Source: Bacillota bacterium (GTDB taxonomy: Bacteria > Bacillota > UBA4882 > UBA10575). Taken from it: DNA of 37,791 bases. Numbering within the stretch: the stretch's first letter is position 1; every line of letters starts with the position of its first letter. This document shows, one piece after another, positions 2,010 to 37,791 of this stretch. The stretch spans positions 1 through 37,791 of the forward strand of contig JAAYHY010000052.1 of assembly GCA_012735135.1 (NCBI GenBank), given 5' to 3'. The position numbers were made by a program, and so were the translations under genes. Below the pieces are notes generated by a model, which saw only the letters and a program-made list of their open reading frames with translations, did no database searches and was not told the origin of the DNA.

Positions 2010-3062
2010 TCAAAATATTCGCATGAACAAAAGCGCCATAATAAAACCGATCAACCCGCAACCGGGAAAAGTCAAAACCCACGCCATCACCATCTCTTTA
2101 ACAATGCTCCAGTTCACCGAGGATAGCCGTTTTGCGGCTCCCACACCCATAATTGCGGTGGTTTTGGTATGAGTGGTGCTCACCGGAATGCCGGTCACGG
2201 AGGCCGTGAACAAGGAGATAACCGCCGCCAAATCGGCGGAGAACCCTTGATGCTTGTCCAACTTGACCATATCCATCCCGACGGATTTTATGATCCGGAG
2301 GCCGCCGATGGATGTCCCCAGCGACATTACCAACGAACACAAAAGCATTAACCAGACCGGAATCTGAAACTGGGTCACATTGGCCCGTCCTTGGGCCAAA
2401 AACATCCCCAACATAAAAACGCCCATAAATTTCTGGCCATCTTGGGCGCCGTGCATAAAGGCCATTCCCGCGGCGCCGGTAATCTGGGCTTTCCGAAAAA
2501 AGCCGTTGGTTTTTCGGCGGTCCATCCGGAAACAGATTTTTTCAATCAATTTAACCACCAGCCAACCGGCGCCGAAACCCATGCCTGCTGACAAGAGAAG
2601 CCCGTAAACTACTTTGATCCATTCCTGTGGATTAATCCCGGAAAGCCCTCCCTGGAGGGCAATGGCGGCGCCGGAGATCCCGGCGATGAGCGCATGACTT
2701 TCACTGGTGGGAATCCCAAACCACCAAGCGGCTGTCGCCCATAAGACAATGGCGAGGAGGGCGGCGCAAAGAGCAACTAAGGCTTCATGGGAGTTGCCGC
2801 CAAAATCCACCATTTTATAAATGGTCTGGGCGACCGTGGCATTAACCATCGTCATCACGAAAACGCCAAGGAAATTAAAGATGGCAGCCATCACAATCGC
2901 CGCCCGCGGTCCCAACGAGCGGGTGGAAATACATGTCGCGATCGCATTAGGCGCATCGGTCCACCCATTAACCAATACTACCCCTAAAGTTAAAACTGTC
3001 GTCACCAAAAGAGCCGGAGTGGATGCCAGCTTTTCTAAAAAATCATAAAATAGAACTGTCAT
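2010..3062 (-). CDS. pit: Inorganic phosphate transporter, PiT family
   Basis: A 350-residue polytopic membrane protein with about ten hydrophobic segments. It has the two PiT signature regions: an N-terminal GWTDAPNAIAT, a variant of the family's GxNDxxNA motif, followed by RSLGPRAAI, and a C-terminal GIPVSTTHTKTTAIMGVG. PiT proteins take up phosphate, usually as a metal-phosphate complex, driven by protons or sodium. The ATG at 3062 is preceded by AGGAGGGACAGA, an ideal ribosome binding site. A longer in-frame reading to 3143 has no such site and adds a hydrophilic 27-residue tail unlike the family, so it is rejected. The DUF47 gene follows in the same direction. A second, unrelated phosphate system (NptA plus PhoU) is present at 32617-35004. 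Confidence 0.93.
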   Translation of the reverse strand: MTVLFYDFLEKLASTPALLVTTVLTLGVVLVNGWTDAPNAIATCISTRSLGPRAAIVMAAIFNFLGVFVMTMVNATVAQTIYKMVDFGGNSHEALVALCAALLAIVLWATAAWWFGIPTSESHALIAGISGAAIALQGGLSGINPQEWIKVVYGLLLSAGMGFGAGWLVVKLIEKICFRMDRRKTNGFFRKAQITGAAGMAFMHGAQDGQKFMGVFMLGMFLAQGRANVTQFQIPVWLMLLCSLVMSLGTSIGGLRIIKSVGMDMVKLDKHQGFSADLAAVISLFTASVTGIPVSTTHTKTTAIMGVGAAKRLSSVNWSIVKEMVMAWVLTFPGCGLIGFIMALLFMRIF

Positions 3063-3278
3063 TCTGTCCCTCCTCTGATAGGGTAACCGTATCTGGTGGG
3101 AAGTATAGTTAGGTTTGTCCATTTCGGGACCGCCGATCTTCAACCGGAATTAACCAGATCCGGCGTCCGGACAGAGAAAGCTCACCCCCTCAATTTTAAG
3201 AAAGTTTGGCTATAAAGTAAAGCTAATTGAGGAAAAAGATTGAAAAACGCCGGTTTATTAAACGAGAATTAACATGAA

Positions 3279-3314
3279 AAGACCTACCAAGCAAATTTTC
3301 CCTTGATAGGTCTT
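3279..3314. terminator. Hairpin terminator after the metal operon
   Basis: AAGACCTACCAAG pairs with CTTGATAGGTCTT with one mismatch around a 10-nt loop, and the leftward strand ends in TCTTTTC. It sits in the roughly 370-base gap between the Crp/Fnr gene and pit, downstream of the former. Nothing else recognisable was seen in that gap. Confidence 0.55.
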
Positions 3315-32420: not shown

Positions 32421-32485
32421 GAAAAAAGACCTTTTCTTGTGTTGATTCTATGTTAAGGCCATATTGAGACTATCCCGCTAAAATG

Positions 32486-32616: not shown

Positions 32617-34233
32617 TCAACCCATCCCCAATACCGTATAGGCAATATTCATCGCATGATTCTCGACCCGGCGGAAGGACTCAATTAGATCCAGATGAAT
32701 GGCGCTGGTGGCCAAGGTCCTTTCATTACCCTCTCTTATCCTTTCAAAATGTTTATACCTTAATTTATTTTCCAAACGAAGAAGCTTTGGGTGCTCCTTA
32801 ATCACTTGCGTCGCCAATTCCCTATTGGAATCTGCGAATGCTTGGAGGGCCAAAGCCAAACTGGTATCCGCCTTTTCATACATGAGTTCCAACTCCTGGA
32901 CCCCCTCCCCCGAAAATTCCATTCTCCCCTGGGTAAATTTACGCGCCAGGTTGATGACGTTGATTAAAAGGTCACCAATATGCTCCAAATCATTGGCGGT
33001 ATATAAGATCTGGATGGTGCGCTCCGCCAAATCCTCCGGTAAGGTGTGGCGCCTGATTTTGGCCACATAAGCACATATTTTTTGGTAGATGGAATCAAGG
33101 GCGACTTCCGCTTTTTTAATTCCTTCAATCGCCTCTTTTTTATACGCCCGAAAGGCATAAAGTAAATGCTTTAACATTTCTTCCCGGGCGATTCTTCCCA
33201 TCTCCACCGTCTGCAGTTTGGCTTGGTTAACCGCAATTTCCGGTATTTCCAGAAAACTTTCATTCAGGTATTTTGCCGTTTCCAGGACGGGTAATCTTTT
33301 CTTGCCGTCAGGGACCAGTAGTTTGCCGAAAAGCGCCAGTTGGTTGGTGAAGGGTAAAAACAAAAGGATCAGGAGGATATTAAAGAAGGTATGGGCATTG
33401 GCAATTTGCCGGGCTACCGAATCGGAGGTTACCCTCACCGCTGTACTGAACCCGTGTATAAACGGGAGCAGAAGCAACGTGCCGATAACTTTGGTCAAAA
33501 TGTTAATCACCGCAACCCGCTTTGCTTCACGGGAAGTCCCGATCCAGGACAAAGCTCCGGTCGCACAGGCGGTTCCAATGTTCGCTCCTAAAATTAATGG
33601 CATGGCCGTTTCAATGGTGATCATTCCCTGCGTCGCCAGGGAAATAAGGAGCCCGATTGTGGCAGCGCTACTGTGAATGAGGCCACTAAAAACAGTAGAG
33701 ACCAAAATACCCAACAAAGGGTTTTTTCCAAAACCAACAAAGAGGTCGTGAAAATAGGGGCTGTTCCGCAGCGGGGATACCGTCTCCGCCATTAATTTCA
33801 ACCCGTAAAACAAAAAACCGATCCCCAGGAGTACCCGGCCCGTATGGATCAATTTGTTGTTTTTATTGCCAATGATCATCATAAAGGCCGCCAGCCCAAT
33901 GAGGAGCAATGCATAATCGGCAATATTAAAAGCCAGTAATTGCACGGTCACCGCTGTGCCGACGCCCGATCCCAAAAGCACACCAACGGCTTGCCCCACC
34001 GTCATTAGAGAAGCGCTCACCAAGCCGACTAACATGATAATGGCCGCACCGCTGCTATTTAAAATTACCGTTATGACGAACCCGAAGAGCAACGCCACAA
34101 TCCGGTTGCGCGTAAGGGTCCCTATAGCATTCCGGAATTTATAATTCGTGACCAATTGCAAACTTTCGGAGGTCAATTGCATCCCATAAAGGAATAAGCC
34201 TAAACTGCCAATCAAGCCGCATAAGATATGCAT
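32617..34233 (-). CDS. Na/Pi cotransporter family protein (NptA type) with PhoU-like C-terminus
   Basis: A 538-residue membrane protein. The N-terminal 330 residues carry two inverted Na/Pi cotransporter repeats with the QSS-like motifs VILNSSGAAIIML (first) and SGLIHSSAATIGLL (second). The C-terminal 200 residues are a cytoplasmic PhoU-like helical domain (LAERTIQILYTANDLEHIGDLLINVINLA). The protein would bring in phosphate coupled to sodium; the PhoU part probably regulates it. Here the motifs use NSS and HSS instead of QSS, a variation seen in the bacterial group. The ATG is preceded by GGAAGAGCG. A phoU gene lies 99 bases upstream in the same direction, so the two are likely co-transcribed. 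Confidence 0.93.
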   Translation of the reverse strand: MHILCGLIGSLGLFLYGMQLTSESLQLVTNYKFRNAIGTLTRNRIVALLFGFVITVILNSSGAAIIMLVGLVSASLMTVGQAVGVLLGSGVGTAVTVQLLAFNIADYALLLIGLAAFMMIIGNKNNKLIHTGRVLLGIGFLFYGLKLMAETVSPLRNSPYFHDLFVGFGKNPLLGILVSTVFSGLIHSSAATIGLLISLATQGMITIETAMPLILGANIGTACATGALSWIGTSREAKRVAVINILTKVIGTLLLLPFIHGFSTAVRVTSDSVARQIANAHTFFNILLILLFLPFTNQLALFGKLLVPDGKKRLPVLETAKYLNESFLEIPEIAVNQAKLQTVEMGRIAREEMLKHLLYAFRAYKKEAIEGIKKAEVALDSIYQKICAYVAKIRRHTLPEDLAERTIQILYTANDLEHIGDLLINVINLARKFTQGRMEFSGEGVQELELMYEKADTSLALALQAFADSNRELATQVIKEHPKLLRLENKLRYKHFERIREGNERTLATSAIHLDLIESFRRVENHAMNIAYTVLGMG

Positions 34234-34332: not shown

Positions 34333-35004
34333 CTATCCCCGATACTTAAACGGATGGCGTTCGCCCGTTTCCGCAAAGATCGTCATTTCGGCAATATTCA
34401 CAATGTGATCCCCGATCCGCTCCAAGGATCTGGCCACCAGTAACAAATTACTGGCTTGCTTCACACAATCGGCCCTTTCTATCATGTAAGCGGTTAATTC
34501 ATGAAACAAAACTCCGAAGAGGCGGTCGACCTCATCATCATCCGCATCCAACTCCATGGCAATATCGGTGTTTTTAGCCAAAAAGGCCGAAACCCCTTTT
34601 TCCATCATTCCAGTTACCAGCCGGCCCATTCTGGAAATATCCTCGAGCGGCTTAAAGTAGGGGCCGTCCTTGGCCAAATGCGCGGCAACCTCAGCGATAT
34701 CACAAGCGTAATCCCCGATGCGTTCCAATTCATGACTAATCTTAATCACGGAAGCCAAAAACCGTAGTTCCTGATCCACGGGTTGTTGCAAGGAGATTAG
34801 TTCTAAGACGCTCATCTCGACCGCCTCTTCCAGCGCATCAACCTCATCGTCCCTGGTGATGATGGTAAGCGCGAGCTCCCGATCTTGATTTACCAAAGAG
34901 CGCATTGCTTCGCTAATTTTCTCCCCCACCAGCTCGCTTAAGTCCGCCAATCGGTGGTTGATCTCGATCAACGCCCGTTGATACCAGTCAATATAGTCCG
35001 CCAT
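34333..35004 (-). CDS. phoU: Phosphate signalling complex protein PhoU
   Basis: A 223-residue cytoplasmic protein made of two similar three-helix bundles. The metal-binding patterns are present in both halves: [18 protein letters not shown] and [21 protein letters not shown]. PhoU normally links the Pst transporter to the PhoR kinase; no pst or phoBR genes are in the window. Its neighbour is the NptA transporter, so it may work with that. The SD GGAGGATTAAAG precedes the ATG at 35004. Upstream is the divergent Fe-transport operon. Confidence 0.95.
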
Positions 35005-35105
35005 CTTTAATCCTCCGGAATTTTCTCCATATCCGCCTAAGGTTAATAATAATTTAATCTGGTTTCATTTTAATTTATCGCCATCCTCATTTAAAGGCTT
35101 TTATT

Positions 35106-35206
35106 CTATTATTTTGTTGATAAAAATGAACAATCCGTCCTCCGCCCCTTTTCTGGCTGGATTTAGATCATCCGGAATTTGTTCAGGATTATCAACAAAA
35201 TAATAG
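35106..35206. promoter_or_regulatory. Nested inverted repeats between phoU and the Fe-type ABC operon
   Basis: CTATTATTTTGTTGATAA (35106-35123) is perfectly inverted at 35189-35206; with a 3-nt mismatch block the pairing extends inward by TGAACAA. Each arm also contains its own dyad, TTGTTGA-N6-TGAACAA (35114-35133) and TTGTTCA-N6-TCAACAA (35179-35198), 65 bp apart centre to centre. This fits paired operators for a looping repressor, or one large cruciform. The gap from 35005 to 35344 shows nothing else definite apart from an AAAGGAGG ribosome site. Confidence 0.7.
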
Positions 35207-35344
35207 CTTTGTCTGATTTTTTTCCTGTTTCCTTTATGTTATTTTTTAATTGATAATTAGTAAAGGGGGTGTGGATCCGCTTTAGCTGTCATTCCCGCTA
35301 GTAAAACTATGAGGCGAATAATGAGAATAAAGGAGGTTTTTCAT

Positions 35345-36283
35345 TTGAAAAAATTCAGTTATGCGCTGGTCATTATCTTGGTCTGTGTTTTGGTTTTTTC
35401 ACTTTCTGGTTTAACTGCCGAAAGGTTGACGGCATATGTCAGCTTGGATGAGGAAATCGCCCGGGCTGTCCTCTCCGCTTTCCAAAAACAAACTGGCATT
35501 CAGGTAGACTGGGTCCGGCTCAGCACCGGTGAAGCTGCGGCCAGAATCGAAGCGGAAAAGCAGAACCCGCAAGCCAGCATTTGGCTGGGCGGTGTGGGCT
35601 TAAACCACATCGAAGCGAAAAACAACGGTTTAACGACACCTTATACCTCACCCAACGCGAAAAATGTCCCGCCTCAATTTAAGGATCCCGATAATTACTG
35701 GTGTGGTCTCTATGCCGGAGCGCTTTGTTTTGTCTATAACACGGAAATACTGAAAGAACTTAACCTCCCGGCGCCCAAATCTTGGGCTGATTTAATTAAA
35801 CCGATTTATAAAGGACATATTCAGATGGCCAGTCCGCAAACCTCCGGCACGGCCTATAATGTGATCACGACCATTGTTTTCCTTTACAACCGGAACGAAA
35901 CCTTAGCCTTTGAATACCTGAAAGAATTGGATAAAAATATTAGCCAGTATACAAAATCGGGCTCCGCTCCCGGTCGCGCCGCCGCCATTGGCGAAACCGC
36001 AATTGGTTTAGGTTATTCCCACGATCAAGTTAAACTGATCGCCCAAGGTTATCCTCTGGAAATCGCTTTCCCGCAGGAAGGGACCGGTTTCGAGGTAGCA
36101 TCGATGTCGTTAATTAAAGGCGGTCCCCAATTGGAAACTGCGAAAAAACTTTACGACTGGATGCTGACCGACGAAGCCGCAAAAATCCTGGCCGATAATT
36201 ACCTCTCCGGCCTTATCGGTCATCCTCTTGTTGGGAAAAAACGGTTTGATCACCAAAACATTATTGGGGATCACCAACTTTGA
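35345..36283 (+). CDS. Fe(III)-type ABC transporter substrate-binding protein, C-terminus lost
   Basis: An exported periplasmic-type binding protein of the AfuA/FutA/FbpA family (cluster D, Fe(III); related proteins bind 2-aminoethylphosphonate). A signal peptide, MKKFSYALVIILVCVLVFSLSGLTA, is followed by LTAYVSLDEEIARAVLSAFQKQTGI and the family pattern PQASIWLGGVGLNHIEAKN, then GLYAGALCFVYNTEILKELNLPAPKSWADL. The start is a TTG at 35345 with AAAGGAGG 8 nt upstream; an in-frame ATG at 35309 precedes the SD and is rejected. After LADNYLSGLIGHP the frame passes into permease coding sequence read in another frame and stops at 36283. The native last 40-50 residues of the family are absent, so the product may be unstable. 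Confidence 0.85.
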   Translation: MKKFSYALVIILVCVLVFSLSGLTAERLTAYVSLDEEIARAVLSAFQKQTGIQVDWVRLSTGEAAARIEAEKQNPQASIWLGGVGLNHIEAKNNGLTTPYTSPNAKNVPPQFKDPDNYWCGLYAGALCFVYNTEILKELNLPAPKSWADLIKPIYKGHIQMASPQTSGTAYNVITTIVFLYNRNETLAFEYLKELDKNISQYTKSGSAPGRAAAIGETAIGLGYSHDQVKLIAQGYPLEIAFPQEGTGFEVASMSLIKGGPQLETAKKLYDWMLTDEAAKILADNYLSGLIGHPLVGKKRFDHQNIIGDHQL

Positions 36284-37517
36284 TATTTACGGTTTCAAGG
36301 GGCTGGTGCTTGTCCAGGCTTTAAGCATGTTCCCCATCGCCTATCTCGTCCTGGACGGCGTATTAAAAGGAATCAATCCCGAATTGGAAGACTCCGCTTT
36401 TAACCTTGGAGCCAACCGGCGACTAGTCTTTCGCACCGTAACCCTTCCGCTCTCAAGACAAGGCATCGCCTCCGCCTGGTTGTTGGTGTTTGTAACCTCC
36501 CTGGCGGATTTCGGTAATCCGGTGATTATAGGGGGGAACTTCGATGTCCTCTCTGTTCAAGCCTACTTGCAAGTAACTGGCATGTTTAATACCCCGCGTG
36601 GAGCGGCCATCGCTTTTGTCCTCTTAGTTCCGGCGCTGATCGCCTTTTTTCTCCAGCGTAATTTAAGTAAAAAATCACTGGTTACGGTCACTGGTAAACC
36701 GTCAACTTCCGGGTTGATGAAAGCCCATCCCCTGACGAAGTACGCCTTGGCCATTTTGATGTCGCTCATCTCGTTAATCACCATCGCCTTTTACGGGGTG
36801 ATCATCTACGGTTGTTTTGTCAAACTATGGGGTTACAATTGGTCGTTAACTCTCGAGCATTTTATCTACGCTTGGGATGTCGGCAAGTTAAGTATTGGCG
36901 CTACGGTGATCATGGCGGGACTGGCAACGGTCATCGCCGGTATCCTTGCCATGATTATCGCCTTTATTTTAGTGCGCAAAGAGTTCCCCGGGAAAAAAAT
37001 CATGAACTTTGTCACCTTGCTTGGTTACGCCATCCCCGGAACACTGGTGGGGATCGGTTATATTCTGGCGTTTAATACTCCTCCGTTCTTATTAACCGGT
37101 ACCATGTGGATCATCGTCTTCTGTTTCGTTTTCCGCGAGATCCCCGTCGGGATCGAATCAGGGGTGGCCACGCTAAGCCAGATTGATCCTTCCATCGAAG
37201 AAGCCTCACGCAATCTCGGTGCTTCGACCAGGTATACCTTTACCCATGTCATCCTCCCTTTAATTAAACCGGCCTTCTTCGCCAGTCTGGCCTATAGTTT
37301 CGTCCGGAGTATGACGGCGGTTTCTGCCGTAATTTTCCTGGTGACCGCCCGCTGGAACCATTTAACCTCGCTTGTGTTGGCGCAAACAGAAATTATGCGG
37401 CTTGGTCCGGCCAGTGTTTTATCTTTGATCACAATTATTATTGTCTTTGCGGTTTTTGCCCTTATCCGTCTCTGTTTGGGTCAAACAAGCTATACCGCGC
37501 CTAGAATTGGAGGTTGA
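36228..37517 (+). CDS. Fe(III)-type ABC transporter permease, N-terminal part missing
   Basis: A 429-codon frame of a two-domain permease (FbpB/SfuB-like, normally about 550 residues, 12 helices). The first visible coding is LGKNGLITKTLLGITNFDIYGFKGLVLVQALSMFPIAYL, which lies in the middle of the first half in relatives. The first EAA loop (NPELEDSAFNLGANRRLVFRTVTLPL) and the second (DPSIEEASRNLGASTRYTFTHVILPLIKP) are both intact. About 120 N-terminal residues, the start and the SD are missing, and the frame overlaps the end of the binding-protein frame. The lost DNA would span the binding protein's end, an intergenic gap and the permease start. ATPase coding follows after 5 bases, so the operon order is binding protein, permease, ATPase. 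Confidence 0.85.
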   Translation: MLGKNGLITKTLLGITNFDIYGFKGLVLVQALSMFPIAYLVLDGVLKGINPELEDSAFNLGANRRLVFRTVTLPLSRQGIASAWLLVFVTSLADFGNPVIIGGNFDVLSVQAYLQVTGMFNTPRGAAIAFVLLVPALIAFFLQRNLSKKSLVTVTGKPSTSGLMKAHPLTKYALAILMSLISLITIAFYGVIIYGCFVKLWGYNWSLTLEHFIYAWDVGKLSIGATVIMAGLATVIAGILAMIIAFILVRKEFPGKKIMNFVTLLGYAIPGTLVGIGYILAFNTPPFLLTGTMWIIVFCFVFREIPVGIESGVATLSQIDPSIEEASRNLGASTRYTFTHVILPLIKPAFFASLAYSFVRSMTAVSAVIFLVTARWNHLTSLVLAQTEIMRLGPASVLSLITIIIVFAVFALIRLCLGQTSYTAPRIGG

Positions 37518-37522
37518 AGAGA

Positions 37523-37791
37523 ATGAGTGTCAGTGTAAAATTGGAAAACATCTCGAAAAGATTTAAAGCACCCGGGGGAGGCTCGGTTACGGCTGTCGAC
37601 AACCTGAGTTTGTCCATCCAAAAAGGCTCCTTCGTCACCCTGCTGGGCCCTTCCGGGTGCGGTAAAACCACGACCTTAAGAATTATTGCCGGCTTCGAAA
37701 ACCCGGATCAGGGCCGGATCTTTCTTGATGGGGCCGATATCACCTACCTGCCGCCGGACCAACGGGGATTGGCGATGGTTTTCCTAAGTTA
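37523..37791 (+). CDS. Fe(III)-type ABC transporter ATP-binding protein (partial)
   Basis: The first 89 codons of a FbpC/PotA-like ATPase. Walker A is GPSGCGKTT, followed by LRIIAGFENPDQGRI and the usual DITYLPPDQRGLAMVF. The next codon, where relatives have the Q-loop Gln (MVFQxYALFPH), is CTA (Leu), then AGT TA before the window ends. GGAGG lies 9 nt before the ATG. It is the third gene of the uptake operon. Confidence 0.9.
   Translation, partial: MSVSVKLENISKRFKAPGGGSVTAVDNLSLSIQKGSFVTLLGPSGCGKTTTLRIIAGFENPDQGRIFLDGADITYLPPDQRGLAMVFLS

Follow-up and report, generated by a model that had tools for sequence, protein, structure and literature searches.

Two inverted copies of a conserved element between phoU and a transporter operon in a Bacillota bacterium: candidate boxes of a YesN-like response regulator

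The window analyzed in this work, i.e. the whole stretch of 37,791 nucleotides from contig JAAYHY010000052.1 of a Bacillota bacterium (assembly GCA_012735135.1, G000 in the following), carries close to its end two divergent groups of genes. Phosphate genes are found on the minus strand and the genes of a predicted ABC transporter operon on the plus strand:

32617-34233, minus strand: nptA-like Na/Pi symporter gene with a C-terminal PhoU domain (NF037997 above cut-off, PF02690, PF01895)
34333-35004, minus strand: phoU (TIGR02135 with 190 bits at a cut-off of 130; PF01895)
35345-36283, plus strand: gene of an AfuA-like solute-binding protein (listed ORF 35309-36283, likely start TTG 35345; PDB 8x1a, 4r72, 6wce)
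36228-37517, plus strand: ABC permease gene, N-terminus shortened by about 130 residues (match to TIGR03262 from profile position 114)
37514-37789, plus strand: ABC ATPase gene, running off the contig end

The start of the binding-protein gene and the truncation were placed by alignment with L027, the orthologous locus of genome G012. The alignment of the window permease begins at residue 133 of the L027 permease, and near 36200-36225, at the junction of the binding-protein and permease genes, the window is about 570 nt shorter than L027. Between 36190 and 36290 these two genes overlap in different frames, with the C-terminus of the one and the N-terminus of the other lost. The missing segment may reflect a real deletion or decay, or an assembly fault; if the deletion is real, transport has likely been lost in this strain, and the boxes described below may be relics. 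The rest of the ATPase gene opens contig C87, which shares a 4-base overlap with the window end. At this contig end (37770-37791) the ATPase reads VFLS as compared to VFQS in its relatives, a site which we take to be the Q-loop; VFLS is probably a contig-end error. On the far side of the locus, TTAACA-like hexamers in 11-bp steps on the minus strand (32440-32467), upstream of GntR-ABC genes, resemble a Pho box. Such loose matches number 31 in the window as compared to 20.6 expected, and none of 100 shuffles reached 31.

The intergenic stretch between phoU and the likely start of the binding-protein gene contains a large inverted repeat, the right arm of which is part of a longer conserved element:

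35106-35133, minus strand: left arm, an inverted copy of element columns 1-28 before phoU, identical to the right arm at 25 of 28 positions
35179-35218, plus strand: conserved element, consisting of the right arm (35179-35206, columns 1-28) and 35207-35218, kept at four related loci
35209-35218, plus strand: second, promoter-proximal part of the element, on the transporter side only (TTnTC at columns 11-15 and 31-35)

The two arms of 28 nt each lie 45 nt apart and are 89% complementary (25/28 paired). Their outer 18 bp pair perfectly; the next three positions (element columns 8-10) form a single mismatch block, after which seven further pairs follow, in full agreement with the initial annotation, which had also correctly placed the repeat between divergent phoU and transporter genes. 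In the whole window this is the sole perfect inverted repeat of at least 14 bp with a gap of up to 200. When the 342-bp intergenic stretch was shuffled 2000 times with dinucleotide composition preserved, the longest perfect inverted repeat obtained was 14 bp (mean 8.4), and 18 was never reached.

Each arm had initially been read as an operator of the form TTGTTSA-N6-TSAACAA. Both 20-bp matches are present (35114-35133 and 35179-35198), and they are the only sites without mismatch in the genome. Their reading as operators is not supported, since the inner dyads are not conserved while the 40-bp element is kept. Within each window dyad six of the seven positions pair, the S positions being non-complementary to one another; in the copies of the four related loci, 4, 5, 4 and 3 of the seven positions pair. 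The two centres are indeed 65 bp apart, which at 10.5 bp per turn corresponds to 6.2 turns and thus not clearly to the six helical turns that had been proposed. A genome-wide search for further sites of this form gave 73 places with up to two mismatches as compared to 25 for the reversed pattern. Thirteen places outside the arms were sampled (four with one and nine with two mismatches); nine of them lie in ORFs of at least 100 aa and four outside (L014, L016, L023, L025). This threefold excess in G000 might stem from a dyad regulon of the CRP/FNR-like or another type.

The inverted-repeat unit is present in a single copy in the 2.56-Mb assembly. Its best other match in the genome (82% over about 30 nt) falls, judged by eye, inside an apparent ABC ATPase gene. 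A MITE or repeated hairpin, which had been named as the finding that would overturn the regulatory reading of the 100-bp unit, was rejected since there is one copy per genome and the next match reads as coding. The statement that the site is not a typical Fur box likewise stands: within three mismatches of the 19-bp Fur consensus, no match occurs in the window, although looser boxes may be present.

Orthologues of the binding protein are 75-76% identical in UBA5388 (G012, locus L027) and UBA5486 (G011, locus L028), and 64-68% identical at two loci of G021 (L079, L080), a genome from another family of the same class. The element is kept upstream of the orthologous gene at all four loci, which together with the window gives five copies in three related genomes and this one, from two families. 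Its consensus, GTTCAnnnTTnTCnACAAAAnnnnAGnTTTGTCYGATT, is non-palindromic and shows single departures such as GTGCA in L028. Over 38 bases, L027 agrees with the window at up to 34 positions, L028 at up to 31 and each of the G021 copies at up to 27, all of these best alignments being placed at 35180-35181. With 500 shuffles per pair, at most 27 (L027), 26 (L028) and 26 and 25 (G021 loci) identities were reached; the G021 comparisons exceed the shuffles by one and two bases only, yet land in the same register. TTnTC is found at columns 11-15 and again 20 bp further on, at columns 31-35, in all five copies. When the element was compared with itself, offset 20 gave 42% identity, the highest value among offsets 5-27; offsets 28 and 29 gave 42% and 47%.

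Besides the five copies, a matrix scan of the loci analyzed gave, at 20 bits or more, only the left arm (24.9 bits) and one site in L096 of G017 (21.9 bits), and the same scan of the four related loci revealed no second, inverted copy in any of them. With up to one mismatch, only the two arms match the half element in G000. Across 29 genomes of the class this half-element scan gave 32 places in 19 genomes as compared to 32 for a reversed control, and thus by itself shows nothing. Seven places are exact. Five of these are the element copies, and the remaining two, in G007 and G003, have identical sequences; that in G007 lies within the start of an exporter ORF. The element is absent upstream of the binding-protein genes of seven further genomes of the phylum (in L122 of G246 only 227 bp are readable) and at the more distant relatives L029-L031, L035, L064 and L066-L068; the matrix scan of whole loci L032-L034 and L036-L040 gave no match of at least 20 bits. 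When the intergenic stretch was compared at the DNA level with its own genome and 60 relatives, the best match after that of L027 was one of 28/31 bases on the left-arm side in G022 (L043, E 8e-5), inside an ORF, and most other matches were at chance level. Two further observations were made at these loci: in G012 (contig C117; L066/L071) the gene of a 45% identical binding protein, which lacks the element, is preceded at about 2.3 kb by a second phoU in the same orientation, and in spirochaete relatives (L030-L033, L035) what by eye appears to be a tRNA gene lies just upstream of the binding-protein gene on the other strand.

The left arm is a partial copy. It has the first TTnTC only, columns 31-35 reading TAAAA. 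Its 24.9 bits were obtained with the matrix built from the five other copies, i.e. with the left arm outside the training set, whereas the training copies score 45.9-51.5 bits by construction. Within columns 1-28, 13 columns vary among the five copies, and the left arm agrees with the right one at 10 of them, which points to recent copying in inverted orientation and not to gradual convergence. None of the four related loci has a divergent phoU, and no element was found upstream of phoU in G001 (only 79 bp), in G011 or at the two phoU genes of G012. The left arm has no promoter-proximal repeat; it may bind its factor weakly or not at all, and left-arm binding is the weakest link of a reading with two boxes.

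The five copies and the left arm were aligned without gaps on the element, the offset of the promoter hexamers being chosen by eye from the G021 copies. This places the following predicted promoter elements:

35217-35222, plus strand: -35 position of the transporter genes, TTTTTT, very weak, from the ungapped alignment on the element
35240-35245, plus strand: -10 position of the transporter genes, TATTTT, with T, A and the last T invariant in all copies
35090-35095, minus strand: -35 of phoU, TTTAAA, at the same offset from its box as on the transporter side
35067-35072, minus strand: -10 of phoU, TAAAAT, after a 17-bp spacer

All six copies have T in columns 62 and 67 and A in column 63, i.e. 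TAnnnT occurs at one fixed distance from the box. The -10 hexamers read TATTTT, TAATGT, TAATAT, TAAGAT and TACGAT, and TAAAAT before phoU. The hexamers 17 bases before them are TTTTTT in the window, TTTATT in L027 and L028, TTGAGT and TTGAAC in G021, and TTTAAA before phoU. At the fixed offset, the phoU promoter matches the consensus hexamers at 9 of 12 positions and the G021 copies at 8 each; the right copy of the window and L027 reach 6 and L028 reaches 7, with other spacings there scoring up to 8 or 9. In shuffles, a 9/12 match at one fixed offset has a probability of 0.0014, and TAnnnT alone one of 0.036. A consensus scan of the stretch gave four matches on the minus strand, where 1.3 were expected, one of them being the phoU promoter (35095-35067), and no match on the plus strand. 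The predicted transcription starts lie near 35252 on the transporter side and near 35060 on the phoU side. The end of the element reaches the predicted -35 position. An activator would be expected at this place, and a weak -35 would depend on one.

AraC-type activator sites are direct repeats overlapping the -35 with a period of 21. The element of the window may be of this kind, with two TTnTC occurrences and its end at the predicted -35, but the period would be 20, and the left box has one half only. In our literature search nothing was found on direct repeats for YesN, HptR-uhpT or AraC-type response regulators.

The transporter had been labeled as Fe-type, and the depositors' names of the two best solved matches to the binding protein do say iron. 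The best three solved chains are 8x1a, the closest one, deposited as an iron(III) compound binder, 4r72 (AfuA; E 1.5e-56) and 6wce (E 9.4e-46). AfuA is reported to bind hexose phosphates and not iron, AfuABC having first been annotated as ferric, with Ser37 and Thr150 contacting the phosphate and His205, Asp206 and Glu229 the sugar (PMC4546632). To bring the His-Asp pair into line with this report, the AfuA chain numbering was shifted by 2. At the corresponding sites the window protein has Thr twice, followed by His, Asp and Glu, i.e. four of five are identical and Ser37 is replaced by Thr. The window locus shares with AfuABC most of the ligand residues and the first label as ferric, and differs in its linkage to a two-component system and phosphate genes. 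The third chain, P5PA (6wce), is an AfuA relative reported to bind another phosphorylated ligand, pyridoxal phosphate (PMC8427247). It has His-Ala where AfuA and the window protein have His-Asp. NCBIfam models for aminoethylphosphonate transport were the best named ones, but far below their cut-offs for a 2-aminoethylphosphonate transporter of the PhnS2/PhnU2 type: PhnS2 with 218 versus 393 bits and PhnU2 with 253 versus 593 bits, the longer L027 proteins giving 236 and 314 bits. Because the binding protein keeps four of the five AfuA sugar-phosphate residues, the label Fe-type is doubtful, and the transporter likely imports a phosphorylated compound.

A candidate for the factor acting on the element is encoded close by. 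In L027 and L028 the genes follow each other on one strand in the order binding protein, permease, ATPase, histidine kinase, AraC-type response regulator. In G000, contig C87 continues after the ATPase remainder with a kinase of 582 aa, a regulator and an iron-type alcohol dehydrogenase (L116, 3678-5063), whose best NCBIfam name, PsrA (Phn_Fe-ADH), is far below cut-off. The gap between the ATPase and kinase genes amounts to about 396 bp (L027), 224 bp (L028) and 289 bp (C87), and with such distances of 224-396 bp the kinase genes may have their own promoter. On contig C32 of G021, binding protein, permease, ATPase, phoU, nptA, a HAD hydrolase, kinase and regulator are encoded on one strand. 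Three of the four related loci thus encode a YesM-type kinase and an AraC-type regulator downstream, in the same orientation; in G000 these two are found on C87 after the ATPase. The kinase contains His_kinase (PF06580), HAMP and HATPase domains and a sub-threshold dCache domain; the regulator consists of a receiver and an AraC helix-turn-helix domain. At the fourth locus (G021 contig C34, L080) the element precedes a lone binding-protein gene (2140-3304). A PocR-AraC gene and a different kinase-regulator pair are its neighbors, and neither ABC genes nor a regulator of the C32 type were found within the 9.5 kb read. The lone gene perhaps encodes a sensor-only binding protein, as HptA is.

Among the 29 genomes of the class, an orthologue of the regulator (E up to 1e-60) is present in four, the same four that have the binding protein at E up to 1e-70. 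Among 398 genomes of the phylum, nine have the binding protein at E up to 1e-85, namely G000, G021 and seven others. In these seven, all from outside the class, the regulator is absent at E up to 1e-60, the nearest being a 41% identical protein in G381 at 2.4e-57. The regulator is thus present in 4/4 genomes with the element and in 0/7 with the binding protein but without the element, a clear association that follows taxonomy and is confounded with descent. Its stretch SESYLSRLFK, taken as the first recognition helix of the AraC helix-turn-helix, is identical in the regulators of G000, G011, G012 and G021 C32; its counterpart is SKSYLFRIFK in the other regulator of G021 (C17), and the closest protein of G381 has SSTHLNQKFK.

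That a regulatory feature common to the two divergent units lies here, as the initial annotation had assumed, is very likely. On the strength of promoter spacing, conservation and gene content, we consider it probable that the arms are two boxes of one regulator, the C87-type YesN-like response regulator, which would activate two divergent promoters. The looping repressor originally suggested is not supported, since the boxes stand directly upstream of the -35 positions, the usual place of an activator, and the dyad follows from the two copies. A bridging arrangement in another form, with the regulator or another factor joining the full right site to the left half site and shutting or coupling both promoters, would make use of a full and a half site that face each other in opposite orientation around a common centre, and AraC itself loops between araI1 and araO2. 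It would, however, demand a very tight loop over the 65 bp (6.2 turns), each box stands at the activator position of its own promoter, and the right box is kept at related loci without a left one, all of which makes bridging quite unlikely, although the geometry itself would allow it without calling for it. A structural RNA, a terminator hairpin or a MITE-like repeat is highly improbable: 35095-35260 does fold better than all of 200 shuffles (z -4.8) and one terminator-like site lies inside the stretch, but the stretch lies upstream of both predicted starts, so that neither unit would transcribe it, it has no Rfam match at the gathering threshold, the unit is single-copy, and related loci keep one arm only.

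The most serious competitor, which we regard as possible but clearly less probable than two working boxes, is that the right arm works alone, the left one having arisen recently by template switching as an inverted duplicate of neutral effect. Its agreement with the right arm at the variable columns and its missing second half would be expected in that case; the 9/12 promoter at exactly the same offset from the left copy speaks against it, given how rarely chance would produce one. Somewhat less probable still is binding of the boxes by another regulator, for example one of the PhoB/PhoP type responding to phosphate starvation. The phosphate genes phoU and nptA are one of the two targets, and the element on G021 C34 adjoins a different two-component pair and a PocR-AraC gene. 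On the other hand, neither arm matches the TTHACA-N5-TTHACA box with up to two mismatches, and the restriction of the half element, at up to one mismatch, to two places in the genome would be expected of a local regulator more than of one acting on all phosphate genes.

Under the preferred reading with two boxes of a YesN-like regulator, an outside phosphorylated compound would activate the YesM-like kinase, with or without the AfuA-like binding protein. The regulator, composed of a receiver and an AraC-type domain and encoded with this kinase downstream of the transporter genes, would then be phosphorylated, bind the boxes just upstream of the two -35 positions and recruit RNA polymerase to the transporter operon, which has the full two-part box and the weak -35. 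The same regulator would act on the phoU-nptA promoter, with its half box and better -35 and -10. The large inverted repeat would be a by-product, existing because two box copies stand before divergent promoters. While phoU-nptA lies behind a single box on G021 C32, it would here form a separate divergent unit with its own, probably copied, box. A further step, in which the two-component system captured phoU-nptA by inverted duplication of the box and the full and half sites form a bridged switch setting the ratio of organophosphate uptake to Pi symport, is speculative and in our estimate improbable.

HptS and HptR are of the YesM and AraC kinds, respectively. The HptRSA system of Staphylococcus aureus comprises the binding protein HptA, the kinase HptS and the regulator HptR with the target uhpT, upstream of which the HptR site spans -67 to -96 (PMC6291074). 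The window system resembles it in having a binding-protein gene in a predicted operon with kinase and regulator, and in the putative control of uptake of a phosphorylated compound. HptA-HptS-HptR also offers a model for a binding protein that senses a phosphorylated sugar and is encoded together with a two-component pair (PMC6291074). It differs in the ABC genes after the binding protein and in the second box facing phoU-nptA. Our literature search found nothing on UBA5388 or UBA5486.

Overall, the proposed mechanism is of a familiar kind, and the dyad is mostly ordinary in its explanation. The analysis provides a candidate box, a candidate regulator and two candidate target promoters for a YesMN branch for which no described target was found in the literature search. 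It furthermore moves the label of the transporter from iron to a likely phosphorylated compound. Finally, the box seems to have followed the phosphate genes into a new transcription unit.
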